A DNA stretch of 33,764 nucleotides. It comes from Treponema sp. Lineage in GTDB: Bacteria > Spirochaetota > Spirochaetia > Treponematales > Breznakiellaceae. The notes below the pieces were generated by a model. That model was not told the DNA's origin, made no database searches, and saw nothing but the letters and a program-made list of their open reading frames with translations. The position numbers and the translations under genes were made by a program. The stretch is taken from the NCBI GenBank assembly GCA_031258005.1, contig JAIRNP010000035.1, forward strand, positions 1 through 33,764, read 5' to 3'. Shown here in pieces: positions 2,568 through 26,528 of this stretch. Every line of letters begins with the position of its first letter. The stretch's first letter is position 1.

Positions 2568-2576
2568 ATTTTTACC

Positions 2577-3551
2577 CTATTCATCCTCATCGGAGATAAA
2601 TACACGTATATCTTTTTGCATATCGGATTCATTTACTGCATCTTTCTTGTTTATTGTTTCATAAACTTTGTTAAAATCCTCATACCACTCCTCCGAGAAA
2701 TTGAATTGGGGTTTACCGTCTTTGCCGGTGAAAACAAAACCCATTATATAATTTTGCTGTAAATGATCTTCATTATCACCTGATGATTCAAGTAATTTTG
2801 GATTTGCAAAAACAAATTTATGTTCATGATAGCGTAAGATTATATCTATTGAGATAAGATTGAATTCATCTTTTCGTGGTGTAGCCTGCGTTCTCTCGCT
2901 ACTGCCGGAAGTACCGGAAACAAAGTGAGTTTCCAACACTTTTACTTTAGTCATGACATAATCAACTCTTTTTTGAATCATGTCATTTATTTCATCTCTG
3001 TTGTAACCACTTAACAAGGCAATTGCGCGAAATTTATCTGTCTCCCTGCTCGGCTTATTATTGATATACTTTTGTATTTCTTCATAATCATAAACATTAT
3101 TTTTGTATTCATCAAAGAATTTGGGTAAGGTTGTTTCAATCCACCCAATAATTTGCGATTCAAGTTCTTTAGAGGGATTAATCCATGCTATTTTATCCGA
3201 ATGGGTATATAAAAATCTTTTTAGATTATCATAATTATAGAGTTTGTGCCATTTTTCAGAGTTTGATTTTACTCCTTTTGATTCAATAACAAACCATGGG
3301 CTTTGTTGATTTCTTCTGAAATAGAAATCCCCATGATGCTTCGAATGTTTTCTCCCCTCCCATTTTTCACGAATTCTGTACACTTCGCACCCATATTTTA
3401 TTTCAAGTTCTTTTTTAAGCAAAAGTTCCGTTATTGATCCGTGAATATATCCTCGTGCGCTCTTATTGAGTTGCAGAGCCTCCAAAAATATTTCAAGTGT
3501 AGTCCTAAAAATATCTTTTACAAATTTTTCCACTCTCTCAAAAATACTCAT
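2577..3551 (-). CDS. Putative PD-(D/E)XK restriction endonuclease of the R-M pair
   Basis: I do not recognise a named family. The N-terminal third carries a plausible PD-(D/E)XK nuclease core: a helix with Glu43 (GSITELLLKKE), Asp76 in HGDFYF, and the ExK pair Glu91/Lys93 in WFVIESKG (numbering from the upstream ATG at 3554). The rest is a charged helical and beta region without recognisable motifs and without helicase motifs, so it is not an HsdR. Two ATGs are adjacent; GGAG lies 4 nt from the first (3554) and 7 nt from the second (3551), so I prefer 3551. The gene is AT-rich like the methylase gene, precedes it by 9 nt, and is most simply its cognate endonuclease. A role as an anti-phage nuclease of another type remains possible. 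Confidence 0.7.
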   Translation of the reverse strand: MSIFERVEKFVKDIFRTTLEIFLEALQLNKSARGYIHGSITELLLKKELEIKYGCEVYRIREKWEGRKHSKHHGDFYFRRNQQSPWFVIESKGVKSNSEKWHKLYNYDNLKRFLYTHSDKIAWINPSKELESQIIGWIETTLPKFFDEYKNNVYDYEEIQKYINNKPSRETDKFRAIALLSGYNRDEINDMIQKRVDYVMTKVKVLETHFVSGTSGSSERTQATPRKDEFNLISIDIILRYHEHKFVFANPKLLESSGDNEDHLQQNYIMGFVFTGKDGKPQFNFSEEWYEDFNKVYETINKKDAVNESDMQKDIRVFISDEDE

Positions 3552-3613
3552 CATTTAGCTCCATAATAAAGGCGAAAATCCCACTTGATTCCATAGTAGA
3601 ACCATTTTTTGAC

Positions 3614-6592: not shown

Positions 6593-9500
6593 CTATCTTT
6601 TAACCAGCTTTCCTGTAGCGTCCAGTTTATATGCGGATAAACTTATCGTATCAAGGCCGTAGATAAAATTACTGAGGGGGAAACGTTTCAGGATATTCGC
6701 GCTGATTGTATTACCGGCGTTCTTGATCAAATACTTCCCCTGCCAGTCACCGTCTATCGTAGCATCTCGAGCGAAACCGGTTGAGGTGAGGTGGCTTTCA
6801 AGGCCGATACTGGTTATGGGGTTTGATCCTGAAGTAAAGAGCCCGTCAGTGGACAGGAGATTGATATAGTTCCGGTTATCCTGGGGATCATCCGCAAAGG
6901 CTAGTTCCACATCGGTGACCCGGGCGCCTTGCGTAAGGGTAAACGCATCTCCGGATCCGTTGTTCCAGCTTCCCTTGGCGTAATTCCAAACATAAACCGT
7001 GTCCGACCGGGCCGTGCCGGTCATCGTGGTGATGCCTCTGTTGCAAATACCCTTGGAACTTCCGGTGCCTTTATTATTGGTTATCGAAGCATTGCCGTCC
7101 ATGTAGAAAAGAGCCCGGGACCAGGTAAACACACCGCCGCCCTGACGGGTGGACTGGTTGCCGGTAATATGGCCGTCGATCATTTGAAACACGCCCTTGG
7201 CCACATACACGCCGCCGCCGCCGTGGGGCATCACACCGCCGTAAGCAAAATTCTTCTCTATAGTTCCGGCGCTCATCAGAAAGTTATGGGGAACATCATC
7301 GGGAGAATCTGGAAGAGTGGAACCGTTCACCAGGACGCCGCCCCCTGAACCTTTAGTGGTGTTACCGGAGATCGAAGCTTCGCTCAGCCAGAACAAACTG
7401 TCCTCGCCGTTCACATACACGCCGCCGCCGCCCTGGATAGATGCGGCGCTGATGGTATTGTTTGCAAAGTTCGCCCATGTTGCGACACTGCCGCTGGCGG
7501 TGTTGTTCATGACACTCCCGGCAAGCAGATCAAACTCGCTGTCCTCCACATAGACCCCGCCGCCGGATACCGCCGTGTTGCCGGAGATAACGCCGCTCTT
7601 CCATATAACCGTACTGGCGCTGCCGCCTATATACATACCGCCGCCGTTAGTCCCGTCCCCGCCCTGGATAGTGATGTTGTCAAAGGTGATATGCGCGCCG
7701 CCGGTGATGGCAATCACCCGTTTGCCCGCCGTGCCCTGCAGGACGGCGTTGCTGCCTACGCCGGTGATGTAGATGCGGTAAGGCGCCGTGCCGTTCCTGC
7801 CGGTCCCCTTGAGGTTGAAGACGCTACTGCCTCCGGAAACAGGGGGCGCGCCGCTTAATTGAAACGTGCCATAGGACTCCACATTCGTAGTGGAGGTATC
7901 CTCATAAGCCCCGCCTTCGCTTGCGTCGTTCAGGGTTCCAATGACATAAATATGATCTATATTGTACCTGACCGCCTGATACACCGCATAAGCCAGGGTC
8001 TTAAAGGGAAGTGACTCGGATCCGCCGTTGTACTGATCCGGGTCTGTATCGCTGCCCGTAGCCTTGACGTAGTAATGATGCACATCCCGAGCAACGATCA
8101 CCACATAGTTCTGGGTAGTTCCGTGCTGGGCTTTTACTTGGTAAACCGCTTCTTGATAATCATTCTGATTGCCAAAGGGAATATATGCATTACTATTATA
8201 GTAAATCCCATTAGTGGTATTATCTTTAAGTGGTGTTAGGCTTACGCCGTTATAAACAACAAAAAGTTCGGCGTTTGTCCGATCTGACAGGGTTATCTGG
8301 GGAATCAGCTTTTGCAGATCAGTCATTTCTTTATTTGCGGTCAAAGGATCCGTCTTGTAAGGCACCGACACGACAATGGGGACTTTCCCGTCCGCCCGGG
8401 GCTTTGTTCCGATGACCACCTTTGCCCGGGGCACATTGGTGATGACAAAATCGAAGATGCCCGCGTCGGTGGCGGCGTCTTTCGTTTTAACCGTAACGGT
8501 GTATGTGTTCGTAACCGTCCCATCGTCCGATGTTACGGTATATACTACCGGCACATTGAAATTCTGTTCCACCCCTGAGGCGGGAGACAGATTACCCTTG
8601 TAGGTAATCAGGGGTTTAAGGCCGGTAAGGGATGTGCCGTAAGGCAGCTCCACCGCTATACTTCCGTTGGCACCGTCGGACGGCTGGGTAACGGTACCAG
8701 CACCGGGATACCCGTCCAAGACAAATTGGGTAATTTCCGCCTCATGACTTTTTGCTTCCGTGATAGTTACCATATATAGCTCGGATGCGCCGGTCTGGGC
8801 GTACACCCTGAACTGGCGGGACGGCGTAGCTCCAAACACAACTTTTCCTCCGGTCCATGGGATTTCACTACTACCATTACCATCAATGAGTTTTATTTCC
8901 TTTCCAACCCAGGAAATAACCGGCGTCAAATTATAATTCGGATAGGTGGTTCCGGTGCCGTAGGGAACTATCACATTAATAGTTCCGTTGTCCTGATCAA
9001 TGGTAGGCAACTGCGTCAATCCGGTTTCGTTAAAGGCGATATTCGTAATCAAACAATCCTCCGCCGCCGCTTCGGTTACCACCACCGTGTACTGCTGGGT
9101 AACGCCGTTTAGCCCGGTTGCGGTCCAGGAAGTGGGCTTGCTGTAGTCCCCGGAAGACCAGGAGGGATTTCCGTCGGGGCCGATGGAAGGGGCGGGGGAG
9201 GTGATCCGCGCGCCGGGGACGCATTCCACCCGGGGAGTAAGGCGGGTCGAATCCGTGCCGGAGGGAACCATTACCATGATGAGGCGGGTACCGTCGGGGC
9301 CGGGGCTGCCGATAATCGAAGCCGCGCCGGGGGTTTGACTAAATTTAAAAGAATCAATGAACCCGGAACCCGTATCGGTTCCGGTATTGGTTACGATGAG
9401 ATCCCCTGAACCGTAATGGAAGACCGCGGGCGTGGTGAGGTTTGAAAAGATATGGGCGATATCCATACGGCTCACCGGCGGATAGGGATTGTCCATAGCT

Positions 9501-10243
9501 ACCGTGGTGGTAAGCCGGTACTCCCCCGGGGGAAGGGACAGGGAGCCGGACTGCTTAACCAGCCCGGTTTCCCGTTGCACCAGGCTTATAGTCCCCTGGG
9601 CGGCTCCCGCAGTAACGCTTTCGTTCATCAGGGATATGGGTATGGGATTCCAGGTATCATCACCGGCGTACTGTTCCACCAGGAGTTCCGCCCGGGCCGG
9701 AATCTGCCCTACGCCGTCCCAGGAAAGGGAATAGAGCAAGGTCCCGTAAACCTCATCATACATATAGGAGCTGAGCTCCAGGGTTTCGCCTGCTGTATTC
9801 TCCGGTGATACGGTAACTTTCTTCCGTATATCCGATCTTGTGGCCAAATCCCAGGTCCTGGCCACCGGTTTGTCCCCGGTAAAGCCCGCAGCGGACATAT
9901 AATAGTCCCCCTGGTTCAGGCTTAACTGAAAAGAACCGGTCTTTGAGGTATAGACATCAGGAGCGGATCCGTCAGAAGTTTTGGAGACATACAGTTCGTA
10001 CCCGGTAAACCCCGGGTCTACTGCCAGCATGGTGCGGGCAGGGGCTAGATACGACCGATTCGCCGTACCTGAAAGAGCGTCCTGCGAACCGGCAAGGGTA
10101 ACCCGCACGTTTCCCCTTCTCTCAAAGGAGTCTGGACTTTCGAGAATCTGCTTGCACCCTCCTGCCGGCAATGCCAGGGCCGCAGCAAGGAAAAAACCGG
10201 CGAAAACCGCCCCGTTACCATACGCGCTGTTTCTGTTTTTCAT
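6593..10243 (-). CDS. Large lipoprotein with Ig-like repeats and a right-handed beta-helix (Pmp-like) domain
   Basis: The protein (~1216 aa) opens with a lipoprotein signal ending ALPAGGCKQ (lipobox AGGC). After a ~230-residue N-terminal region come about four Ig-like repeats of a type found in treponeme lipoproteins (DUF5018-like), recognisable by TIDQDNGTINVIVPYGT and YTVTSDDGTVTNTYTVTV. A marker HYYVKATGSDTDPDQYNGGS then opens a beta-helix with recurrent GGGVYV and ISGNT turns, as in chlamydial Pmp and other surface beta-helix proteins. ATG at 10243 is chosen because GGGGG lies just upstream and the signal peptide begins there, 13 nt after the upstream stop. Likely surface-exposed; a binding or adhesin role is plausible but unproven. 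Part of its beta-helix is duplicated at 297-450. Confidence 0.78.
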   Translation of the reverse strand: MKNRNSAYGNGAVFAGFFLAAALALPAGGCKQILESPDSFERRGNVRVTLAGSQDALSGTANRSYLAPARTMLAVDPGFTGYELYVSKTSDGSAPDVYTSKTGSFQLSLNQGDYYMSAAGFTGDKPVARTWDLATRSDIRKKVTVSPENTAGETLELSSYMYDEVYGTLLYSLSWDGVGQIPARAELLVEQYAGDDTWNPIPISLMNESVTAGAAQGTISLVQRETGLVKQSGSLSLPPGEYRLTTTVAMDNPYPPVSRMDIAHIFSNLTTPAVFHYGSGDLIVTNTGTDTGSGFIDSFKFSQTPGAASIIGSPGPDGTRLIMVMVPSGTDSTRLTPRVECVPGARITSPAPSIGPDGNPSWSSGDYSKPTSWTATGLNGVTQQYTVVVTEAAAEDCLITNIAFNETGLTQLPTIDQDNGTINVIVPYGTGTTYPNYNLTPVISWVGKEIKLIDGNGSSEIPWTGGKVVFGATPSRQFRVYAQTGASELYMVTITEAKSHEAEITQFVLDGYPGAGTVTQPSDGANGSIAVELPYGTSLTGLKPLITYKGNLSPASGVEQNFNVPVVYTVTSDDGTVTNTYTVTVKTKDAATDAGIFDFVITNVPRAKVVIGTKPRADGKVPIVVSVPYKTDPLTANKEMTDLQKLIPQITLSDRTNAELFVVYNGVSLTPLKDNTTNGIYYNSNAYIPFGNQNDYQEAVYQVKAQHGTTQNYVVIVARDVHHYYVKATGSDTDPDQYNGGSESLPFKTLAYAVYQAVRYNIDHIYVIGTLNDASEGGAYEDTSTTNVESYGTFQLSGAPPVSGGSSVFNLKGTGRNGTAPYRIYITGVGSNAVLQGTAGKRVIAITGGAHITFDNITIQGGDGTNGGGMYIGGSASTVIWKSGVISGNTAVSGGGVYVEDSEFDLLAGSVMNNTASGSVATWANFANNTISAASIQGGGGVYVNGEDSLFWLSEASISGNTTKGSGGGVLVNGSTLPDSPDDVPHNFLMSAGTIEKNFAYGGVMPHGGGGVYVAKGVFQMIDGHITGNQSTRQGGGVFTWSRALFYMDGNASITNNKGTGSSKGICNRGITTMTGTARSDTVYVWNYAKGSWNNGSGDAFTLTQGARVTDVELAFADDPQDNRNYINLLSTDGLFTSGSNPITSIGLESHLTSTGFARDATIDGDWQGKYLIKNAGNTISANILKRFPLSNFIYGLDTISLSAYKLDATGKLVKR

Positions 10244-10256
10244 ACCCCGCCCCCTT

Positions 10257-13200
10257 TTACCGTGATACGTCAAAATAAATCGTCTCCGTGTAATACATGC
10301 CGTTTATTCTCGCGGAAACCATTATCTCGTGCCTGCCGGGGGTGAGAGAACCATCTCCCGTATTCAGGTCGAAACTATTGCTCGTGCTGTTCATCTGTTT
10401 AATAATGCCGTCAAGGTACCACGTATAAGGCCCGTCGACTTTAATCTCAACGGTAATGATGCCCTGAGCAAAGGTACTTTTTTCGATAAGGGTTTTTTCC
10501 TTATCGGTCGTGGAGAGGCTTACCGTAACGGATTCCTGCCGTATCACCGTTACGGTATAGTCCTGTCCAAGGCCGCTATAATCTTTGACGGTGTATGTCT
10601 GGTTGCTGTTAAAATCCTTCGCCGTACCGGTAAAGGGATTCGATGTCCGGTCGCCGCTGCCAGGCCCTGAAATCGATCTCCCGATATAGGTAAGGGTCGG
10701 TACGAGGTTGGTCACCCTTGCGGTGGACGGAACCGTCGCGGTTATGGCACGGTTTCCCTGGTCGATTGAAGCCACCACCCGGACCGCTCCCCCTCCGGTA
10801 AGGGGCACTTCATTAAAGATAAAGCTGGTTATGAGCTTAGTGTCATTGTCCCGGGGCTGCACCGTAACCTTGTAGGTTTTAGTCGTGCCGTCCTCGGCGC
10901 TTACGGTGTAGGTTTGGGGAATATTGAAATTCTGGGGAGTCCCCGAAGCAGGGCTGATGGCGCTACCTTCCGTATAGCTGATTACCGGCGCCATAGTATC
11001 CAGGGGCATACCGGCGGGCACCCAGACGGCTATCGGGTATGTCCCATCGGAATCCGGAAGCCCGCCGATGATCGTCTCCGCGCCGGCGACCCCCGGGAAG
11101 GTAAAGCGGGTAATATCCTTGGCGCTTGAAGCCGTGGGGCTTACCAGCACCGTATAGAGCCGGGTCTTACCGGTTGTCCCGGTAACGGTATAAACCACCG
11201 GACGGCTGAAATCCTGTATCGCCCCGGAAGCGGGCTTTACCGATACCCCGTCAAAATACAGGGTCGGCGTGAGGGCCCGTATGTTCGCCCCTGAGGGAAC
11301 CGTAACGCTGACGGTATTCGTGTTTTGATTTACCATGCCTACGGCCAGGGGATTGATAAAGTAGAAGCCGGTGATTTGAGGCTTGTCGTCATTGCTGTCC
11401 ACATGAACGGTAACCGCATAGGTCTTTTTCGTGCCATCTTCGGCTGTTACGGTATATTCCTTTGGATTGGTGTCGGAGAAGTCAACCGCCGTTCCCTGTA
11501 TCGTACCGGGGCCCTTATCCTCCAAACCGTCTATACTCCCCCCATTAATAGTAATGACAGGGGTGAAAGAACCGATAGTTAGATCCCCATCACCCGGAAC
11601 CGTTACATCAATAGGATATTTCCCAGCCGCATTGGGCATGGCGCTGATGATGACGTTGGTACTCACCGGTGTTGTAGAATCACTAGGATCCGTTAAAGAA
11701 AAGGCCGTTATCTCCCCGGCGCTGTTTTTCGCCGCCCTTACCGTTACCGTGTAGGTTTTGGTAGTATTGTCCGCGGCCTTTACCTGGTACGTTACCGGGC
11801 TGGTGAAACTCCCGGTGTGCTTGAGGGGGTTGGTCCCGGGAATTCCGGCAATCTCCTTGCCGGTATAACAAATACCCGCGGTCAGGTTCCGCAAGTCCGT
11901 GCCGTAGGGAACGGTTACCGTGATAGTTCCGGTATTCTGATCGATCTCTCCAACCGCCGGGGGACCGGTAAAGTAGAAGCCGTCAATAGAAGCCGCACTG
12001 GAGGCCGGAGCCGGAGGATTGTCGGGCGGCGGGTTTATGACGGTTACATCTACATCTGAAGATATGGAGTAATTGGTATTATTGGTCGTATTGCTCTTGG
12101 TAATATAGTTGTTGATGGTTTCATTGGTAATATGGTTGTAAACCGTTTCCTTGTTTTCAAGCAGGATCAGTTGATTTAAGATCTTATTAAGGGTTTCGTT
12201 ATCCACCGTGCTGGCGGCGGGGTAGGTGATATTAAGTACAGGATTTTCGATGTACGTAGGATTCTCGATGTACGTGGAGTTATCGATATGTGTAGGAAAT
12301 TCAACAATCACGGTGTAATTTCCCGAATCCGTACCCATACCGGAATCCGTACCCGTACTGGAATCCGAATCAGCGTTAATACCTACATCCACCTTTGCGC
12401 CGCTTCCGGCGTCGGAAACGACAACTACCGGCGGGGCCGGGGCGGTAAACACGGAAACCACGTATGTTTGTGATTCCCCATCCTGAGAACGCACCGTGTA
12501 TGTTACCGGATCGGTAAAATCCATCGGCCGCCCGCTTATGGGGTTTACGGAAGCCCCCTTGTAGTAGATGTCCGGACTTAACGCGCTCAGGTCCGTACCC
12601 GCAGGCACCGTCAGGGCGATGGTATGGTTCACCTGGTCAATAACCCCCTGTACCAGGGGATCCTTAAAGTAAAAGCCCGTTATAATCTTGTCCTCCTGGG
12701 CAACGCTGTTTTTTAGGACGATATGTACCGTATATTCCCGGGTGCTGCCGTCTTCCGCGGTTACCGTGTAGGTTTTCGACCCGGAGAAATCAAGCTCGGT
12801 CAACGGCTCGGGGCTTATGGAGGCCCCCGCATATTCGATGTGAGGGGCCTTTTTAAGAAGATTTTCATTTGCGGTTGACGGAACGATCGCCACAATGGGG
12901 TACTTCCCATCCGGCTGGGGATCCTGGCCTATGATCTCGATCTCGCCGACGATGCCTAAACTGAATGACCGGATCTCCTTGTCATGGCTTTTTTCCTTGA
13001 CCACGGTAATGGTATAGACTTTGGCGGAACCGTCCCGGGCGATAACCGTCCATTGGGTATCTTTTGAAAAGTCTCCGGTAAAAGCAAAGGTTTCCTCCAG
13101 ATGAGAACTAATCGAAGAAACCTGGGTTACATTGCCGATATGGGTAACATGGGCCGCCAGGCCGTTCAGCGCCGTCCCTGCGGGGACCGTAACCGTGATA

Positions 13201-13688
13201 GTACCCTTATCCTGATCGATGAATCCTGCTACGGTTCCATCGGGACCGGCCAGGGGCGCATCCAGGATAAAATAGACGATATAGTTGGTGGAAGGCCCTT
13301 TTACATACACCGTAACGCGGTAATCCGCGGTCGAACCGTCGTCTGCAGTAACCCTGTAATCCACAGGAGAACTGAAATCTCGAGGAGCCCCTGAAGGCGG
13401 ATCTAAAGATATGCCGGTAAATTGAATGGCAGGAACCAGGGACCTCACATCGGTTCCCTCCGGCAGGATGATCACGATCGGTATTTTCCCGGAAATATCG
13501 TGTTCCCTGCCGATGGGGAGGTCTGTTTCCCCGTCAATACCGAAAGAAAAGGAGGTGATTTCTTTGGATCCGGGAGCCCCTCCTAAGACTTCGGTTCCGA
13601 TACTTATCGTGTCTATCCACTGTAATACCGGATTGGAACAGGCTGACAATACTGACGCAAGGATGAAAAGGCCCAACATTTTTTTCAT
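10257..13688 (-). CDS. Multi-domain lipoprotein with nine Ig-like repeats and a central Asn/Thr-rich segment
   Basis: The protein (1143 aa) has a lipoprotein signal ending VLSACSNP (lipobox LSAC). Nine Ig-like units of ~85-110 residues follow, each ending in a DFS..YTVTAEDG..YTVTV pattern. Two kinds can be told apart: A units contain a DGKYPI-like strand, B units contain an IDQ..TITVTVP strand. Order by eye is A-B-A-B, linker, B-A-B-A-B. The linker (~420-565) is rich in Asn, Thr and Ser with a TYIENP repeat and a possible coiled coil (ETLNKILNQLILLENKETV). The last ~95 residues form a separate beta domain with WYLDG. Two ATGs adjoin; a GGAGGTGA ribosome-binding site favours 13688. First gene of the surface operon. 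Probably an extended surface stalk; its partner is unknown. Confidence 0.75.
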   Translation of the reverse strand: MKKMLGLFILASVLSACSNPVLQWIDTISIGTEVLGGAPGSKEITSFSFGIDGETDLPIGREHDISGKIPIVIILPEGTDVRSLVPAIQFTGISLDPPSGAPRDFSSPVDYRVTADDGSTADYRVTVYVKGPSTNYIVYFILDAPLAGPDGTVAGFIDQDKGTITVTVPAGTALNGLAAHVTHIGNVTQVSSISSHLEETFAFTGDFSKDTQWTVIARDGSAKVYTITVVKEKSHDKEIRSFSLGIVGEIEIIGQDPQPDGKYPIVAIVPSTANENLLKKAPHIEYAGASISPEPLTELDFSGSKTYTVTAEDGSTREYTVHIVLKNSVAQEDKIITGFYFKDPLVQGVIDQVNHTIALTVPAGTDLSALSPDIYYKGASVNPISGRPMDFTDPVTYTVRSQDGESQTYVVSVFTAPAPPVVVVSDAGSGAKVDVGINADSDSSTGTDSGMGTDSGNYTVIVEFPTHIDNSTYIENPTYIENPVLNITYPAASTVDNETLNKILNQLILLENKETVYNHITNETINNYITKSNTTNNTNYSISSDVDVTVINPPPDNPPAPASSAASIDGFYFTGPPAVGEIDQNTGTITVTVPYGTDLRNLTAGICYTGKEIAGIPGTNPLKHTGSFTSPVTYQVKAADNTTKTYTVTVRAAKNSAGEITAFSLTDPSDSTTPVSTNVIISAMPNAAGKYPIDVTVPGDGDLTIGSFTPVITINGGSIDGLEDKGPGTIQGTAVDFSDTNPKEYTVTAEDGTKKTYAVTVHVDSNDDKPQITGFYFINPLAVGMVNQNTNTVSVTVPSGANIRALTPTLYFDGVSVKPASGAIQDFSRPVVYTVTGTTGKTRLYTVLVSPTASSAKDITRFTFPGVAGAETIIGGLPDSDGTYPIAVWVPAGMPLDTMAPVISYTEGSAISPASGTPQNFNIPQTYTVSAEDGTTKTYKVTVQPRDNDTKLITSFIFNEVPLTGGGAVRVVASIDQGNRAITATVPSTARVTNLVPTLTYIGRSISGPGSGDRTSNPFTGTAKDFNSNQTYTVKDYSGLGQDYTVTVIRQESVTVSLSTTDKEKTLIEKSTFAQGIITVEIKVDGPYTWYLDGIIKQMNSTSNSFDLNTGDGSLTPGRHEIMVSARINGMYYTETIYFDVSR
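12241..12294 (-). repeat. Three 18-bp tandem units in the lipoprotein linker
   Basis: Units at 12241-12258, 12259-12276 and 12277-12294 share TCGAT(G)TACGT(G) cores and encode hexapeptides of the form TYIENP/THIDNS. The frame is kept. The third unit has diverged. Confidence 0.6.
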
Positions 13689-13707
13689 CATTCACCTCCA
13701 GGGCAAT

Positions 13708-13904: not shown

Positions 13905-15455
13905 ATGAATAAAATATTAAAAGAAAAAATAACGGAAGCCTTCTCCGCGGTGCTTCCTATCACCGTGATTGTCCTCATAGCCAGTGTGGTCCTGGTACCC
14001 ATGCCCACGGGAACCATCCTCATGTTTATCGGAGGAGCGGCATTGCTCATCATGGGGATGGGCTTTTTCACCCTGGGCGCGGATATGGCGATGATGCCTA
14101 TGGGCGAGGGTATCGGGATTCAGCTCACCAAGGCCCCAAGCCTCGCCCTGATCCTGGGGATCAGTTTTGTCATGGGCCTCATCATCACCATCGCAGAACC
14201 GGACCTCCAGGTCTTGGCCCGGCAAGTCCCCTCGATTCAGCCGTCCATGGTGTTGATCCTCACCGTGGGGGTCGGGGTGGGATTCTTCCTTATGGTGGCC
14301 ATAATCCGGATCCTCTTCAAAATACGGCTTTCCGTGCTCTTACTTATTTTTTACCTGGTTACGTTTATCGTGGTTTTTTTAGCCCCCGGTAATTTCATCC
14401 CCGTGGCCTTTGATTCAGGCGGGGTTACCACCGGCCCCATTACGGTGCCTTTCATCCTTGCCCTGGGAGTGGGGGTCGCGTCTATTCGAAGCGACAAACA
14501 TTCCCAGGATGATAGTTTTGGCCTGGTATCCCTCTGTAGTATAGGCCCGATTGTCGCGGTCCTCTTACTGGGTATCTTTTACAATCCCGGCGGCGCGGAT
14601 GTGGAATCCCATACCGTACCGGTAGTGGCTACTTCCCGGGATGTGGTTGTCCGCTTTGCCCTGCAGTTTCCCCAGTACCTGGAGGATGTATTGAAGGCCT
14701 TGGCGGCGATTGTCATCTTTTTTCTCGTGTTCCAGTTTATCGCCCGGCGGTTCAAACGGCATCAACTCGTGCGGATCGTGGTGGGTTTCCTGTATACCCT
14801 CATAGGGCTCGTGCTCTTCTTAACCGGGGTCAATGTGGGCTTTATTCCGGTGGGGCATCTGTTGGGATCCGAGCTTGCCGCTTCCCCGGTGAAGTGGATC
14901 CTGGTACCCTTCAGTATGGTCATCGGCTACTTCATCGTGGATGCAGAACCCGCGGTCCATGTGCTCACCAAACAGGTGGAAGAAATTTCCTCCGGCGCGA
15001 TTACCCAAAAGGTGCTGAAGCAGGGCCTTTCCGTGGGCATGGCCCTGGCGCTGGCCATCACCATGCTGCGGATCCTCCTGGGTATTTCCATTATGTGGAT
15101 TTTGATTCCCGGATATGCCTTTGCCCTGCTGCTGACCTTCTTTGTGCCGAAGATTTTCACCGGTATCGCCTTTGATTCCGGCGGGGTGTGCAGCGGCCCC
15201 ATGACCTCCACCTTTCTCCTGCCCTTGGCTATGGGAACCTGTGAAGGTGTGGGGGGAAACCTCATGACCGACGCCTTTGGTATCGTGGCGATGGTGGCCC
15301 TGGCTCCCTTGATCGTCATCCAGGGGCTGGGACTCATATACGGCAGCAAGCTGAAGCGCTTCGCCAAGAAGACCGAAGAGGAAATCCAGAAGATACGAAC
15401 GGAAAAAGTGGAAGAAATCGTCCTGTTTGAAGAGGAGGCCTGGTATGAAGCATAA
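13905..15455 (+). CDS. DUF1538 family multi-pass membrane protein, putative transporter
   Basis: The protein (516 aa) is an inner-membrane protein made of two homologous halves, as is usual for DUF1538 proteins. Each half carries an acidic loop motif (AEPDLQVLA near residue 98; AEPAVHVL near 347) and a Gly-rich re-entrant-like motif (AFDSGGVTTGP; AFDSGGVCSGP). Many hydrophobic helices separate them. The paired motifs look like inverted or duplicated transport units. The C-terminal tail is a charged cytoplasmic helix (KKTEEEIQKIRTEKVEEIV). The substrate is unknown. The next gene overlaps it by 11 nt, so translation is coupled and the PII-like product probably controls this protein. Confidence 0.82.
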   Translation: MNKILKEKITEAFSAVLPITVIVLIASVVLVPMPTGTILMFIGGAALLIMGMGFFTLGADMAMMPMGEGIGIQLTKAPSLALILGISFVMGLIITIAEPDLQVLARQVPSIQPSMVLILTVGVGVGFFLMVAIIRILFKIRLSVLLLIFYLVTFIVVFLAPGNFIPVAFDSGGVTTGPITVPFILALGVGVASIRSDKHSQDDSFGLVSLCSIGPIVAVLLLGIFYNPGGADVESHTVPVVATSRDVVVRFALQFPQYLEDVLKALAAIVIFFLVFQFIARRFKRHQLVRIVVGFLYTLIGLVLFLTGVNVGFIPVGHLLGSELAASPVKWILVPFSMVIGYFIVDAEPAVHVLTKQVEEISSGAITQKVLKQGLSVGMALALAITMLRILLGISIMWILIPGYAFALLLTFFVPKIFTGIAFDSGGVCSGPMTSTFLLPLAMGTCEGVGGNLMTDAFGIVAMVALAPLIVIQGLGLIYGSKLKRFAKKTEEEIQKIRTEKVEEIVLFEEEAWYEA

Positions 15456-16170
15456 TACGGTACCGGTGCTCAAACTGCTGTTTGTGATTATTGACTGGAA
15501 TAAGCTTAGGGTAGTTTCTAAGGTTTTCGATCAGGAAAGGATCCGCTTCCATTTTGTCGGCAAAGGCAAAGGAACGGCTAGTTCGGAAATTCTTGATGTC
15601 CTTGGTATCGGATCCAGCGAAAAGGCGGTGATTCTCTGTTTGGAACAAGAGGAAATGGCGCCGTTTTTGATTCAAGAGGTACGGAAAAAACTAGGGGTCC
15701 ATAGCGTGGGCGCAGGCATTGCCTTTACGGTTCCCCTTTCGGGGATAAATAACCTCATATTTAAGCTATTTAAAGAACCGGATATCCTTAATATGCCTGA
15801 AATCTCGGAAAATCAGGAACAGAACCCCAGGGAGGAAGTAAACGTGAGCAGCACTCTCAAAAACGACGTCATCATATCCATCATCAACCAGGGCTATAGC
15901 GATGAATTTATGACCGTGGCCCGGGAAGCGGGGGCTACCGGCGGAACGGTGATCAATGCCCGGGGGCTGGACCATCAGAAAAGGGTCAAATTTTTCGGCG
16001 TATCCGTGCAGGACGAAAAGGAAATCATCCTTATCCTCGCCGGCCGGGAACAGAAGGTGCCCATCATGGAGGCGGTGAGCCAGGCCTACGGCATTACCAC
16101 CGAAGCGGAGGGCCTGATATTCTCCCTGCCGGTGGATAAGGTCATGGGCTTGAATGTGCATTTGGAATGA
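15445..16170 (+). CDS. Double-domain PII-like (P-II family) regulatory protein
   Basis: The 241-aa product contains two ferredoxin-like GlnB-type domains, roughly 5-105 and 130-241, joined by an acidic linker (EISENQEQNPREE). The second half carries the PII-family signature AREAGATGGTVINARG, which in PII proteins leads the nucleotide-binding loop; the first half is more divergent. The canonical uridylylated T-loop tyrosine is not evident. ATG at 15445 is chosen because GAGGAGG lies six bases upstream; an earlier ATG at 15427 has no ribosome-binding site. It overlaps the DUF1538 gene. By analogy with GlnK/AmtB and SbtB/SbtA it may gate the membrane partner in response to a nucleotide, which is inference. 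Confidence 0.78.
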   Translation: MKHNTVPVLKLLFVIIDWNKLRVVSKVFDQERIRFHFVGKGKGTASSEILDVLGIGSSEKAVILCLEQEEMAPFLIQEVRKKLGVHSVGAGIAFTVPLSGINNLIFKLFKEPDILNMPEISENQEQNPREEVNVSSTLKNDVIISIINQGYSDEFMTVAREAGATGGTVINARGLDHQKRVKFFGVSVQDEKEIILILAGREQKVPIMEAVSQAYGITTEAEGLIFSLPVDKVMGLNVHLE

Positions 16171-20612: not shown

Positions 20613-21566
20613 TTAGTCGTTTTTTACCGGGCAGTATTCCGCTAAACGGGTGAAAAACTCCCGGTATTCCCTGAGGGCATCAAGGCTTTCTTCGATGCTG
20701 GCCTCGTGGAAACGCAGTATTGTTTTTGGGCGCGCCTGGGCCAGCTTGGAACGGTCGGCACTTATGACGGTGGCGATTTTGCAGTAGCCCCCGGTGGTTT
20801 GCCGTTCCGCCAACATGATGATGGGCGCCCCATCGCCGGGAACCTGGACGGAACCGAAAGCTATACCGTCGGAAATAATATCCGCGGCTTTGACGTGTTC
20901 TATCTTTTCTCCGGCCAGGCGTATGCCCATCCGGTCGCTGTCAAAACTCACCTTGTAGGGCGAGGTGAGAAAGGTTTTTTTCCCCGCATCGGTAAAGGCA
21001 TCGTCCTGGGGCCCCATAATTACCCGGACAAGTATTTCAGGATCGTACCGGGGGATGTACTCTTTTTTCAGTTCCCGCTCCGGCCTGCCCGACGGAGAGC
21101 CGCCAATCGGCAAAACATCATCCTTTTGGAGGGCCCGTCCCTTAAAACCGCCGAATTTTCCCCGGAGGTTTGTCGAGCGGCTTCCCATAATTTCAGGCAC
21201 GCCTATGCCCCCGGATACGCTGAGGTAATTCCGCAGCCCCCCAGTACACAATCCGCCGACAAGAATATCCCCCGGCCCGGCGCGGTAACTTTGCCAGAGG
21301 GCCAGCGGTTTTCCGTTCAGCCTATACGCACAATCGCCGCCAGTTACCGCGAAAAGCGTCTCATCCAAAAACTCAAGGCCCAGGCCTTTGAGCGTTATTT
21401 CTATCACCGCCGCAGAGGCTTCATTCCCGGTCAGAAAGTTGGCAATCCGGGCGGCGTACTCGTCTACGACCCCCGAAACGGACACGCCGTACCGCTGATA
21501 GCCATACCGGCCAAGATCCTCCACCAGGGCCGTCATGCCGGGATCCATAATTCTGAGAGCGCCCAT
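20613..21566 (-). CDS. pxpC: 5-oxoprolinase subunit PxpC
   Basis: The 317-aa protein is the large KipA/PxpC subunit, often labelled biotin-dependent carboxyltransferase. Signatures are MDPGMTALVEDLGRYGYQRY, VSVSGVVDEYAARIAN, VTGGDCAYRLNGKPL, NYLSVSGGIGVPEIMGSRST, SDRMGIRLAGEKIEH and GAPIIMLAERQTTGGYCKIA. With PxpA and PxpB it cleaves 5-oxoproline to glutamate at the expense of ATP. One base separates the pxpB stop from this ATG (TAACATG), indicating translational coupling. Confidence 0.93.
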   Translation of the reverse strand: MGALRIMDPGMTALVEDLGRYGYQRYGVSVSGVVDEYAARIANFLTGNEASAAVIEITLKGLGLEFLDETLFAVTGGDCAYRLNGKPLALWQSYRAGPGDILVGGLCTGGLRNYLSVSGGIGVPEIMGSRSTNLRGKFGGFKGRALQKDDVLPIGGSPSGRPERELKKEYIPRYDPEILVRVIMGPQDDAFTDAGKKTFLTSPYKVSFDSDRMGIRLAGEKIEHVKAADIISDGIAFGSVQVPGDGAPIIMLAERQTTGGYCKIATVISADRSKLAQARPKTILRFHEASIEESLDALREYREFFTRLAEYCPVKND

Positions 21567-21567
21567 G

Positions 21568-22290
21568 TTATCCCTCCTTCCTGCGGTGGACGGACCGGTA
21601 TGTTCCTTCCGCTTCCGCCTTTTCTATGGCGGCGTATGCATCTTCGGTAACCGGTACGAACTTGAGGTAGCTTCCTGCGGCCAGCAAAAAGGGAGGGTCC
21701 CGGCGGTGGTCGAAAATTTTTACCGGTGTACGCCCCAGGAGCTGCCAGCCCCCGGGGCTTTCCACCGGATAGATACCCGTTTGCCCGGCGGCTATGCCCA
21801 CGGAACCGGCGGGAATCAGCGCCCGCGGTTTTTGCAGCCGCGGCGTGGCTATCTCTTTCGGCATGCCTCCCAAATACGGAAAGCCCGGGGTAAACCCTAT
21901 CATATAGATCAAATACTCCACCGAGGAATGGATGCGGATCACCTCCTCCGGGGGCAGTCCCGTATGGGCGGAGATAAAGTCCATGTCTGGTCCCTTCTCT
22001 CCGCCATAGAGGACGGGTATCTCGATCACTTCGCCCTCCGCCGTTCCCGGAGACGCTGAAAAATCGTTCATTGCCGCGGCGGCAATATCGACGATTTCCC
22101 CCGCGGAGATGCAGAAGGGATCGAAATTCACGAGAATGCTCCGGTAGGTTGGTATGATATCCAAAATTCCCGGCAGTTTTGCCTGGTCAAGTTTTCCGGT
22201 AACATAGGTTATCCGGCGGTTTATCCCTTCGGATATCTCATTGCCGAATTCAATTACCAGTCCCGAATCTCCCGCGTTGAAGAAGCGCAT
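21568..22290 (-). CDS. pxpB: 5-oxoprolinase subunit PxpB
   Basis: The 240-aa protein is the KipI/PxpB subunit (allophanate hydrolase subunit 1 fold). It shows GDSGLVIEFGNEIS at the start, IVDIAAAAMNDF, IPVLYGGEKGPDMDFIS, the strongly conserved YLIYMIGFTPGFPYLGGMP, TPRLQKPRALIPAGSVGIAA and GWQLLGRTPVKIF. In B. subtilis KipI also inhibits the sporulation kinase KinA, a role without relevance in a non-sporulating spirochaete. It starts 10 nt after the transporter stop. Confidence 0.93.
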   Translation of the reverse strand: MRFFNAGDSGLVIEFGNEISEGINRRITYVTGKLDQAKLPGILDIIPTYRSILVNFDPFCISAGEIVDIAAAAMNDFSASPGTAEGEVIEIPVLYGGEKGPDMDFISAHTGLPPEEVIRIHSSVEYLIYMIGFTPGFPYLGGMPKEIATPRLQKPRALIPAGSVGIAAGQTGIYPVESPGGWQLLGRTPVKIFDHRRDPPFLLAAGSYLKFVPVTEDAYAAIEKAEAEGTYRSVHRRKEG

Positions 22291-22300
22291 AAATGACCGC

Positions 22301-23521
22301 CTATCTGAACAGGTTCGCGATATTGCCCAGGGAGGTAATGCCCGTGTACGCCGTGGCGATCACTACGAGAAAACCAAGAATCGTTAATACCGGGGGATGT
22401 TTATAGTCGCCCACAATATCTTTCCTGAAAGCCCCGAAGAGGATAAACCCCAGGGACAGGGGCAGGATAAGACCGTTCAGGCTTCCCGCCAGGACCAGCA
22501 GTTTGGCCGCCCCCCCCAAAATCATCATAACGGCGGTAGACACCACGATAAAGCCGATGATAAAGAATTTTTCATAATCCTTCACAATGGAAAACAGGGT
22601 TTTTAAGAAACTGACCGACGTATAGGCCGCGCCGACTATGGATGTGGCGCCGGCGGCCCACATGACGATACCGAAAAACCGGTACCCGATTTCTCCGGCC
22701 CCCAGCCGGAACGCCGAAGGAGCGGGGTTTTTGGGATCCAGGACGCCGCCCTTGGCGATAACCCCCAGGATGGCGAGGAAAAGCAGAATGCGGACTATGG
22801 AACAGATAACAATGCCGGTAACCGCGCTTTTATTGATGTTTCCCAGGTTTTCCTTGCCGGTCATGCCCGCGTCGATGATGCGGTGGCCCCCGGAGAATAT
22901 GATATAGCCGCCTATGGTTCCGCCGATAAGGGTCAAAATCGGCATACCCAGGGCGCTGTAACTGTCGGGAACAAAGGTTTTTGCCACCACTTCGGCGTAG
23001 GGCGGGGCGGTCTGCACCATCACGATGCCGATAACCACAATAACGACCACGCCCAAAACCTTGACGAATTTATCCACCGTCCGGAGCATGTTTTTTGAAA
23101 GGAACAGGAGGGCGCCGATAAGGCCCGACACGCCGACGGTAAGAATCGACCAGCTTTCATCCAGGCCGAACAGTGCCTGCAAGCCCAGGGAAGAGCCGCC
23201 TACGTTGCCGATATTAAAGGCCAGGCCCCCCAGAGCCACCAGAAAGGCCAAAAAATAACCGGACCCCTTGAGTACCTTGTTGGCTATGTCCTGCCCGCGC
23301 ATGGCGGACACCCCCATGATGCGCCAGACGTTAAGCTGCCCGATAATATCCACAATGATAACCACCAGGATCGCAAAAGCAAAACTCGCCTTGTGCGTCT
23401 GGGTGAATACCGCCGTCTGGGTAAGGAAACCCGGACCTACCGCGGACAGGGCCATCAGGAACGCCGCCCCCAGGCCTACCGTACTGAACACGTTTTTTTT
23501 AATTGTGCCTTCGTCACTCAT
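22301..23521 (-). CDS. NRAMP-family transporter (YcsG-type)
   Basis: The 406-aa membrane protein has about eleven hydrophobic helices and belongs to the NRAMP superfamily branch found in pxp operons. The first helix has SAVGPGFLTQTAVF, where canonical NRAMP metal transporters have DPGN. The DPGN metal-binding motif is thus absent, so divalent-metal transport should not be assumed. The helix-6 region reads GAAYTSVSF. Operon context suggests uptake of 5-oxoproline or a related organic anion; this is inference. AAGGAG precedes the ATG, 36 nt after the pxpA stop. Confidence 0.82.
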   Translation of the reverse strand: MSDEGTIKKNVFSTVGLGAAFLMALSAVGPGFLTQTAVFTQTHKASFAFAILVVIIVDIIGQLNVWRIMGVSAMRGQDIANKVLKGSGYFLAFLVALGGLAFNIGNVGGSSLGLQALFGLDESWSILTVGVSGLIGALLFLSKNMLRTVDKFVKVLGVVVIVVIGIVMVQTAPPYAEVVAKTFVPDSYSALGMPILTLIGGTIGGYIIFSGGHRIIDAGMTGKENLGNINKSAVTGIVICSIVRILLFLAILGVIAKGGVLDPKNPAPSAFRLGAGEIGYRFFGIVMWAAGATSIVGAAYTSVSFLKTLFSIVKDYEKFFIIGFIVVSTAVMMILGGAAKLLVLAGSLNGLILPLSLGFILFGAFRKDIVGDYKHPPVLTILGFLVVIATAYTGITSLGNIANLFR

Positions 23522-23557: not shown

Positions 23558-24316
23558 CTAAACAAACGCGGAAATGCTAACACCCTCCGCGGTAAGTTTT
23601 TCCTTGATCCGCCGGGTAAAAAGCAGGGCCTTTTCCCCGTCGCCGTGGACGCAGATCGTATCGGCTTTGATGGAAACAATATCCCCCTCCAGGGTTTTCA
23701 CGGTTCCGTCCCTGACCATCCCCAAAACCTGGGCTATGGCGGCCTCTTCGCCGGTGATTATGGCGCCGGGCTGCCGGCGGGGCGTTAAGGTTCCGTCCTT
23801 CTGATAGGTCCGGTCGGCGAATACTTCCTGGGCTGTTTTGAGGCCGATCCGTTCCGCTTTTTTTATCATCCAGCTTCCCGCCAGGCCGAAGAAGATCAGT
23901 TCGGGGTCAACGGTGTAAACCGCCTCCGCCGCGGCTTCGGCCAGCTTTTCATCCACCGCCGCCATATTGTACAAAGCCCCGTGGGGTTTTACGTGCTGCA
24001 TTCTGCCCCCCTGGGCCCGGACAAAGGCGGCCAGGGCGCCTATCTGGTACACCATCATGGTGTAAACCTCTTTCGGCGTTACGGCCATATTCCGCCGGCC
24101 AAACCCCGCCAAATCGGGGAGCCCCGGATGAGCGCCGATGGCCGTGTTGTTTTTCAGCGCCAGGCCTACGGTCTTCTCCATAACCTCAGGGTCTCCGGCG
24201 TGAAACCCGCAGGCGATATTACAGGAGCTGATGACCTCCAGAACCTGGTCGTCCATCCCCAGCGTATAGGCGCCGAAACTTTCACCCAGATCGCTATTGA
24301 GATCCACTTTGGCCAT
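23558..24316 (-). CDS. pxpA: 5-oxoprolinase subunit PxpA (LamB/YcsF family)
   Basis: The 252-aa protein is the LamB/YcsF subunit, with a polysaccharide-deacetylase-like barrel. The N-terminus [69 protein letters not shown] and VHGDGEKAL are all hallmark stretches with the likely metal or substrate His and Asp residues. The length matches the family. AAGGAG lies 5 nt before ATG; the biotin carrier gene ends 11 nt upstream. Confidence 0.94.
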
Positions 24317-24327
24317 ATACGCTCCTT

Positions 24328-24546
24328 TTAGTCATCCAAGATGATCATGGGGCTTCCCTCTTCCATTTCATCCCACTCGGCAACCAGGATTCCCCTGACT
24401 GTCCCGGCCTTTTCCGTCTGGCAGCTCATTTCTGTTTTCATGCAGTTTATCACCGCCAGTTCCTGACCTGCTTCAACCTGGTCTCCCACCTGCACCATCA
24501 CCCGGGCTACCAGGCCGGGTATGTGGGCTTTTAATGTGTATGCCAT
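24328..24546 (-). CDS. Biotin carboxyl carrier protein-like single biotinyl domain
   Basis: The ~72-aa product is a single biotinyl/lipoyl hammerhead domain: [20 protein letters not shown], the biotinylation motif INCMKTEM (Lys after Met as in the usual AMKM), and [17 protein letters not shown]. It lacks the long N-terminal region of E. coli AccB. ATG at 24546 is chosen because GGGGGAAGG lies just upstream and the domain begins there. It is 26 nt after the carboxylase gene, so the two form a carboxylase-carrier pair. Its carboxyl acceptor is unknown; in such clusters PxpC is sometimes named a carboxyltransferase. Confidence 0.85.
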
Positions 24547-24572
24547 ACCTTCCCCCTTCAGCAATCTTGCCG

Positions 24573-26528
24573 TTACACCAAATTAAATTTTCTACGGATC
24601 ATGGATACCAGCACCTCGGCGGTCTCTTCCACGCTGCCGAAGAGGCTGCTGTCAATGGAAATATTTTTGTTTTCAAGATTCTGGCTGTACGCTTCCGCGT
24701 AAAACCTATTATAGGACTGCCGGCTCTCGTCTTCGTCGGCCAGGGCCTTATCCGCGTCTTCCGGTTTCATGTGCAGATACTTGATACAGTTTTCCCTCCG
24801 CACGTCCCTGGGCGCATAGATGTATATGCTGAAAAGATTCGCATGGTTCCGCAAAATATAATCCGCGTGGCGTCCCACAAAAATTCCGGAATTTTTTTCC
24901 GCTAATTCGAGGATAATTGTTTTCTGGACCTCCAAGATCCGCTCCCTTTCCTCGTCGGCGCCGGTTCCCAGGGGGAAACGCAGTTTGGTATACTCCGCGT
25001 CTACTTCGTCGCTTTCCGCTTCGGGAACCGGAAGGTTCATCGATCCGGCTACCTGTTCAAGAATATTCCGGTCGTAATATTCAACCCCCAAAAGTTCCGC
25101 CATTTTCCGGGCAATGGGACGGCCCAGGCTCCCGAACTGACGGGAAATGGTCACCACATAATTCTCAAGTCCGATATTCACCCGTTCGCTATTGAGAAAA
25201 TTCGTGGAGAAGTTTCCCGCAGCGAAATTTTTATTTCGCATGATCGCGATATCCGTGGTGATATTGGTGGAGACTCCCTGAATCACCAATTTTCTCAGGG
25301 CCTCCCGCATATTGGCGATGCAGGTTTTTCTGTTCCCGCCCCACACGATAAGTTTACCCAGCATGGGATCATAAAAAGGTGAAACCCGGAAACCTTCCCA
25401 TATGGCGTGTTCAAGCCTGACCTGGCCGTTTTGTGCTTCCGGAAATTCCAGCCTGCTGATGATGCCGGGAGAGGGTTTAAAGGTTTTGGGGTCTTCCGCG
25501 TAAATCCGGCATTCGATGGCATGACCCCGTAAACAGATGTCCTGCTGGGTAAAGGCCAGCTTTTCACCGTCAGCAACGCGGATCTGCCATTCCACCAGGT
25601 CCAGCCCCGTTACCATCTCTGAAACCGGATGTTCCACCTGGAGCCGGGCGTTGATTTCCATAAAATAAAAAATCCCTTCGGAATTCCGCAGGTATTCAAC
25701 GGTTCCGGCCCCGGTGTACTGTATGGCCCGGACAATTTTTTCCGTGTAGGAATACAGCCTTTCCCGATCCGTCTCGGAAACCACCGGGGAGGGGGATTCC
25801 TCAATGATCTTTTGGTACCGCCGCTGAATGGAACATTCCCGCTCCCCCAGGCACACGATAGTACCCTGACTATCGGCGATAAACTGAACCTCAATATGCC
25901 GGGGGGCGATCACCTCTTTTTCGATATATATATCTCCACAGGCAAAGGCCATGACGCCGATCCGCTGCATGCTTTCGAATACCGCCTGGATCACCGCCCG
26001 GGACTCGAAATGGTCTATTTCCTCAATACCCTTTCCTCCGCCCCCCTTATCCAGTTTTAACAAGATGGGCAACCCCACCTTTTCGGCGGTTTCATAAATT
26101 TCGTCCACCCCATGGATAATCCCCACGGTACCGGGGGTAACCGGAACCCCCATGTTATCAGCCATAACCCGGCAATAACATTTGGACTCAATGTTCCGCA
26201 GGATGGAAGGATCCGGACCTATCCATTTTGCCCCCGCTTTTTGCACCTGTTCCGCGAAAGGAGCCGATTCGGATAAAAAACCATAGCCCGGATGCACCGC
26301 GTCGGCACCGGACTCCGCAAGCGCGCCGATAAGCGCCTCCGTATTGAGATAACTTTTGGCCGGTGCCGAAGGTCCAATATGATAACTTTCCCCGGCCCGG
26401 GCAATATAATCCGCATCCTTGTCCGCCTCAGAATAAACCACCACGGTACTGATACCCATGGCATCACAGCTTCGGATAATCCGGTTTACAATTTCTCCCC
26501 GGTTTGCTATCAGGACTTTCTTAATCAA
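24573..26528 (-). CDS. accC: Biotin carboxylase fused to a C-terminal cytidylate kinase-like domain
   Basis: The protein (651 aa) is ~200 residues longer than an AccC. Residues 1-~450 are a full biotin carboxylase: KKVLIANRGEIVNR, HPGYGFLSE, ATP-grasp loop DKGGGGKGI, RECSIQRRYQK, FMEINARLQVEHPVSEM with the catalytic Glu, Asn and Arg, CRIYAEDP, and FRVSPFYDPMLGKLIVWG. From ~453 the chain becomes a Cytidylate_kin2-type P-loop domain: VVTISRQFGSLGRPIARKM, GVEYYDRNIL, GIFVGRHADYIL, and SIYIYAPRDVRRENCIKYL. It is one continuous frame without a stop. The start is TTG (26528), where the family's N-terminus begins, with AAAGGGG upstream. First gene of the 5-oxoproline cluster. The acceptor substrate and the kinase domain's role are unknown. 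Confidence 0.88.
   Translation of the reverse strand: MIKKVLIANRGEIVNRIIRSCDAMGISTVVVYSEADKDADYIARAGESYHIGPSAPAKSYLNTEALIGALAESGADAVHPGYGFLSESAPFAEQVQKAGAKWIGPDPSILRNIESKCYCRVMADNMGVPVTPGTVGIIHGVDEIYETAEKVGLPILLKLDKGGGGKGIEEIDHFESRAVIQAVFESMQRIGVMAFACGDIYIEKEVIAPRHIEVQFIADSQGTIVCLGERECSIQRRYQKIIEESPSPVVSETDRERLYSYTEKIVRAIQYTGAGTVEYLRNSEGIFYFMEINARLQVEHPVSEMVTGLDLVEWQIRVADGEKLAFTQQDICLRGHAIECRIYAEDPKTFKPSPGIISRLEFPEAQNGQVRLEHAIWEGFRVSPFYDPMLGKLIVWGGNRKTCIANMREALRKLVIQGVSTNITTDIAIMRNKNFAAGNFSTNFLNSERVNIGLENYVVTISRQFGSLGRPIARKMAELLGVEYYDRNILEQVAGSMNLPVPEAESDEVDAEYTKLRFPLGTGADEERERILEVQKTIILELAEKNSGIFVGRHADYILRNHANLFSIYIYAPRDVRRENCIKYLHMKPEDADKALADEDESRQSYNRFYAEAYSQNLENKNISIDSSLFGSVEETAEVLVSMIRRKFNLV

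Follow-up and report, generated by a model that had tools for sequence, protein, structure and literature searches.

Why should a biotin carboxylase (BC) encoded beside 5-oxoproline (pxp) genes in a Treponema carry a kinase-like domain, and does that domain take part in carboxylation? The question is raised by a gene located at 24573..26528 on the minus strand (read 26528 to 24573) of the stretch of DNA that was analysed, 33,764 nucleotides in length and hereafter called the window. The gene encodes 651 aa from a TTG start; the plus-strand frame over the same positions is interrupted by stops, and the open frame is that of the minus strand. The BC part (residues 1-446; 25191..26528, minus strand) matched three Pfam domains above their curated cut-offs, namely Biotin_carb_N at residues 1-109 (2e-40), CPSase_L_D2 at residues 120-325 (1e-56), and Biotin_carb_C at residues 339-446 (1e-33). 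It is followed by a Cytidylate_kin2 (PF13189) kinase domain (residues 458-628; 24645..25157, minus strand; 5e-37, 128 bits against a cut-off of 28), which was also supported by an AlphaFold (AF2) model and a PDB match. No paper joining the terms "cytidylate kinase-like" and "biotin carboxylase" was found in our literature search.

An earlier, sequence-only reading had proposed that the two domains share one chain, and had named a sequencing or assembly join of two genes as what would overturn the proposal. The genome of the window is indeed fragmented (187 contigs), but the same junction was found in five separate assemblies, in copies 64-92% identical to that of the window, which refutes an artefactual join and leaves it with practically no probability. 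The four other assemblies are Treponema sp. Cc175_bin43 (L075), Spirochaetales Kf353_bin16 (L076), Spirochaetia MS495-87 (L077), and G034 (L037), whose copy is 64% identical to that of the window. The isolate names suggest insect guts as the putative source. The fusion was found in 4 of 200 genomes of the window's family, where the hits in G849 and G829 have the same coordinates as those in the L075 and L077 genomes, while no further fusion was found among 393 genomes of the phylum and none among 391 genomes of Clostridia.

The BC part belongs to the biotin carboxylases by its three domains and its active site, since it retains K116, K159, H209, K238, E276, E288, N290, R292, and R338 (E. coli numbering), to which we assign the catalytic roles. 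The claim that the signature motifs of both domains are intact thus held for the carboxylase, but only partly for the kinase, the P-loop of which (RQFGSLGR) is atypical, with an Arg in place of the Walker A Lys, as is the case across its subfamily. The housekeeping enzymes were rejected as identities for both halves. The BC part scored below the cut-off of every AccC-type model (503.5 versus 626.5 bits for TIGR00514), and a second BC gene is present elsewhere in the genome; the kinase part is not a (d)CMP kinase, given the Arg for Lys replacement and a score of 21.4 versus 102.1 bits for cyt_kin_arch, and a separate CMP-kinase-like gene occurs in the same genome. Both halves evolve under purifying selection, with dN/dS values, where computable, of 0.07-0.19 for the kinase part and 0.06-0.18 for the BC part. 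The AlphaFold model of the full-length protein, built with a shallow BC alignment, had a pLDDT of 51 and gives no usable domain arrangement.

Six genes follow the fusion on the minus strand. These encode a biotin carrier of 78 aa (24328..24564; Biotin_lipoyl, with the motif NCMKTEM and a MAYTLK start at 24546), PxpA (LamB/YcsF; 23558..24316), an NRAMP-type transporter related to PxpT, YcsG, and MntG (22301..23521), PxpB (21568..22290), PxpC (20613..21566), and YcsI of the D-glutamate cyclase family (PF07286; 19804..20592). The transporter was assigned by Pfam, and its role by its relatives in published work; PxpA, PxpB, PxpC, and YcsI were assigned by profile matches. The intergenic gaps are short, so that the run from the BC-kinase gene to ycsI is likely to be one transcription unit. 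The leading position of the fusion in such an operon was borne out in four of the five fused genomes, that of the window included. A tRNA-Arg and two tRNA-Ser genes lie upstream of the fusion on the same strand. Downstream of ycsI, the window has TrkH-like and TrkA genes at the position where relatives have a biotin ligase. Elsewhere in the window, a DUF1538 membrane protein adjoins a P-II-domain protein (13905-16170), two very large proteins (1226 aa, and 1144 aa for the one that carries DUF5018 repeats) are probably surface proteins (6593-13691), and a gene resembling N-6 DNA methylases lies next to a possible nuclease gene, a combination that by eye looks like a restriction-modification pair (618-3554).

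The sequence-only reading saw no dedicated carboxyltransferase in the cluster, which proved wrong: PxpB carries the CT_C_D and PxpC the CT_A_B carboxyltransferase subdomains, and each matches a portion of the urea carboxylase model. Taken with these matches, the operon contains a BC, a carrier, and a carboxyltransferase-type pair, as does urea carboxylase. However, urea carboxylase is a single chain of about 1200 aa, whereas the genes of the window are separate and fall far below its cut-off (472, 187, and 54 versus 1304 bits for TIGR02712, on three separate genes). PxpA and PxpB passed their models (NF003814, 371 versus 226 bits; TIGR00370, 216 versus 146 bits), and PxpC passed the broader TIGR00724 (302 versus 230 bits) but not the equivalog NF045499 (250 versus 500 bits).

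Operons that group pxpA, an NRAMP-type transporter, pxpB, and pxpC are known from B. subtilis (ycsFG-kipI-kipA), C. glutamicum (pxpTABC), and C. difficile (pxpAGBC); the pxp gene order of the window is that of C. difficile, and ycsI is often near in such operons. In contrast to the window operon, these described systems work without a BC, a carrier, or a kinase. Biotin-linked pxp sets do exist elsewhere: on the L. plantarum plasmid pLPBLS41_3, pxpB, pxpC, carrier, BC, ycsI, pxpA, and NRAMP transporter genes lie in a row, and similar sets were found in L. fermentum, Rhizobium, Ensifer, and some Clostridia (L236, L242, L254, and L259). Like the window, they combine a BC with pxpA, pxpB, and pxpC, several with a biotin carrier and some with ycsI and an NRAMP gene, but their BCs, of about 440-464 aa, are kinase-free and belong to other BC lineages. 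The other spirochaete pxp clusters that we examined had no BC, except for a BC fragment at the end of a contig, next to pxpA, in a further member of the phylum (L313:6282-6698, in G081), which is 52% identical to the N-terminus of the window BC. In order-level relatives (L305-L308, L314, and L315), pxpB and pxpC form one frame of 555-602 aa.

Among the fused genomes, the carrier and pxpA genes lie directly downstream of the fusion in L075, L076, and L077, and pxpC is present in each of these genomes. A biotin-protein ligase gene directly follows ycsI in contigs of the L075 and L077 genomes (L301:7759-8550 and L302:7422-8219, respectively), and also in G925 (L320, about 7181-7897), a relative described below; this arrangement ties the operon to biotin.

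From this gene content, we infer the following substrate and order of reactions. Biotin on the 78-aa carrier would be carboxylated by the BC half at the expense of ATP, with bicarbonate as the source of the carboxyl group, and PxpB/PxpC, as relatives of the urea carboxylase carboxyltransferase domain, would transfer this group to 5-oxoproline, a lactam. The lactam thus activated would then be hydrolysed by PxpA, with glutamate as the end product. The NRAMP-type protein would import 5-oxoproline or Mn2+; it is related both to PxpT, which is needed for growth of C. glutamicum on 5-oxoproline (PMC13274462), and to YcsG of B. subtilis, reported as a Mn2+ importer (PMC10448178). YcsI may make 5-oxo-D-proline from D-glutamate.

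Two observations count against a 5-oxoproline pathway, namely the score of pxpC below the NCBIfam PxpC equivalog cut-off and the mum operon of A. baumannii. The latter shares the NRAMP transporter, a BC-family protein, and an allophanate-hydrolase-like gene with the window, but was reported to use urea through a urea carboxylase and to import Mn, and, unlike the window operon, has no reported kinase (PMC5050338). In addition, a BC is not a general requirement of 5-oxoproline opening: Pxp of the E. coli type functions without biotin, and the BC of the window therefore need not act on 5-oxoproline.

The kinase domain was assigned to Cytidylate_kin2 by its score, motifs, and fold. Its AF2 model (pLDDT 84) best matched 3HDT in the PDB (Z 22.0, rmsd 1.6, 165 aligned), followed by 3FDI (Z 20.5, rmsd 1.8, 158 aligned) and then by CMP kinases (Z about 14-16). 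The stand-alone kinases of this family, to which both 3HDT and 3FDI belong, have the same fold and motifs but, unlike the window kinase, are unfused and often lie beside amino-acid ABC transporters. In our kinase tree, the fused kinases form one clade, which nests among stand-alone Bacillota kinases (SH-aLRT 96-99) that are mostly 38-48% identical. All three components of a GlnHPQ-type ABC transporter were found at most five genes upstream of these relatives in 24 of 61 loci, and downstream in three of 61, an association with amino-acid transport rather than a function. Some of the loci also carry proline racemase-type genes, or a nitrilase gene with ycsI. Two kinases of the subfamily lie in one putative amino-acid catabolic cluster (L095:5271-5900 and 8917-9648). 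Conversely, no stand-alone kinase of the subfamily was detected inside the fetched Clostridia and spirochaete pxp clusters, the only match being a distant one (24%) about 2 kb from the L250 cluster.

The history of the fusion was examined with a BC tree, in which the fused BCs form one branch (100/100) on a long stem. Common descent with the other pxp-linked BCs was not supported, as these are scattered and the fused clade stands apart. The exception within this branch is G925, which belongs to the same family as the window and the same genus as G034. Its operon contains BC, carrier, pxpA, transporter, pxpB, pxpC, ycsI, and biotin ligase genes, without any kinase domain: the BC, 74% identical, aligns to residues 1-449 only, and its frame runs straight into the carrier gene. 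The G925 genome could hold a stand-alone kinase of the same subfamily elsewhere. Because the G925 BC is sister to the fused BC of G034 (99/96), within the fused clade, and the fused kinases form a single clade, the simplest and probable history is a single fusion event with subsequent loss of the kinase in G925.

The G034 genome presents the reverse situation. The fusion is kept, but the catalytic glutamate of its BC is replaced (MEIN to LGIN), neither pxpA nor pxpC was found in this fragmented assembly, and frames that by eye are transposase-like adjoin the fusion. The link between the fusion and the pxp operon thus held for four of the five fused genomes and failed in G034. Of the positions at which the remaining four copies agree, G034 differs at 20% in the BC and 25% in the kinase, compared with 2.8% and 9.5% for L076 and 5.4% and 18.1% for L077; this far higher BC-to-kinase ratio indicates that the G034 BC lost constraint more than its kinase did, although as evidence from one degenerate copy it carries limited weight. 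Taken together, G925 and G034 show by their gene content that the kinase can be separated from the carboxylase in both directions. The idea that phosphorylation is an integral part of the carboxylation reaction is consequently unsupported, as G925 keeps the operon without a fused kinase and the L. plantarum, rhizobial, and clostridial sets are kinase-free.

The clean loss in G925, with the operon retained, might also indicate that the domain is a passive remnant left by the fusion event and contributes nothing to the pathway. We consider this improbable, since the kinase is under purifying selection about equal to that of the BC, is kept in five genomes, and in G034 has accelerated much less than the BC. 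Constraint on the kinase is also consistent with a catalytic role on a pathway intermediate, in which 5-oxoproline, its carboxylated form, or glutamate would be phosphorylated and lactam opening driven by both phosphorylation and carboxylation. Phosphorylated lactam intermediates have been proposed for ATP-dependent lactamases (PMC8453981), and the stand-alone relatives sit in amino-acid uptake operons. However, neither G925 nor any other biotin-linked pxp operon examined has a fused kinase, and the variety of transporters and catabolic genes found next to the relatives is not what one common substrate would give; this role is thus unlikely, if slightly less so than that of a remnant.

We favour, with a probability of roughly 0.6, a biotin-linked Pxp operon whose BC gained a Bacillota-type C-terminal kinase once, within a small set of probably gut-dwelling spirochaetes, the kinase being an accessory and not a carboxyl-transfer step. 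Its accessory role would most likely lie in regulation or in a side reaction of amino-acid use, the domain acting as an ATP-using enzyme or a nucleotide-dependent regulator tied to amino-acid uptake and use, and tethering to the BC would allow it to be made and placed together with the pathway. The kinase therefore appears to extend a known enzyme type rather than to introduce new carboxylation chemistry. In the regulatory form of this explanation, the domain would sense nucleotides or act as a switch, adjusting BC activity, or the ATP/ADP balance around it, to the nucleotide state. Its direct tethering to an ATP-consuming BC, its atypical P-loop with Arg for Lys, and its dispensability in G925 are in line with such a switch, but the invariant arginines and P-loop glycines of the subfamily suggest catalysis over mere binding and the stand-alone relatives have no BC nearby, so that we regard this form as possible but tentative. 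More speculatively, and with rather low expectation, orphan P-loop kinases that often accompany amino-acid importers may regulate amino-acid acquisition, and the spirochaete fusion would gate 5-oxoproline use by a nucleotide or phosphorylation signal.

A direct route to testing what the widespread Cytidylate_kin2 kinases do is offered by the fusion together with its transporter-linked relatives and the kinase-free sister operon of G925. The gene set also suggests that PxpB/PxpC can be a true biotin carboxyltransferase, and has implications for the bacterial opening of 5-oxoproline and for the choice between urea and 5-oxoproline as the substrate of BC-containing operons such as mum.
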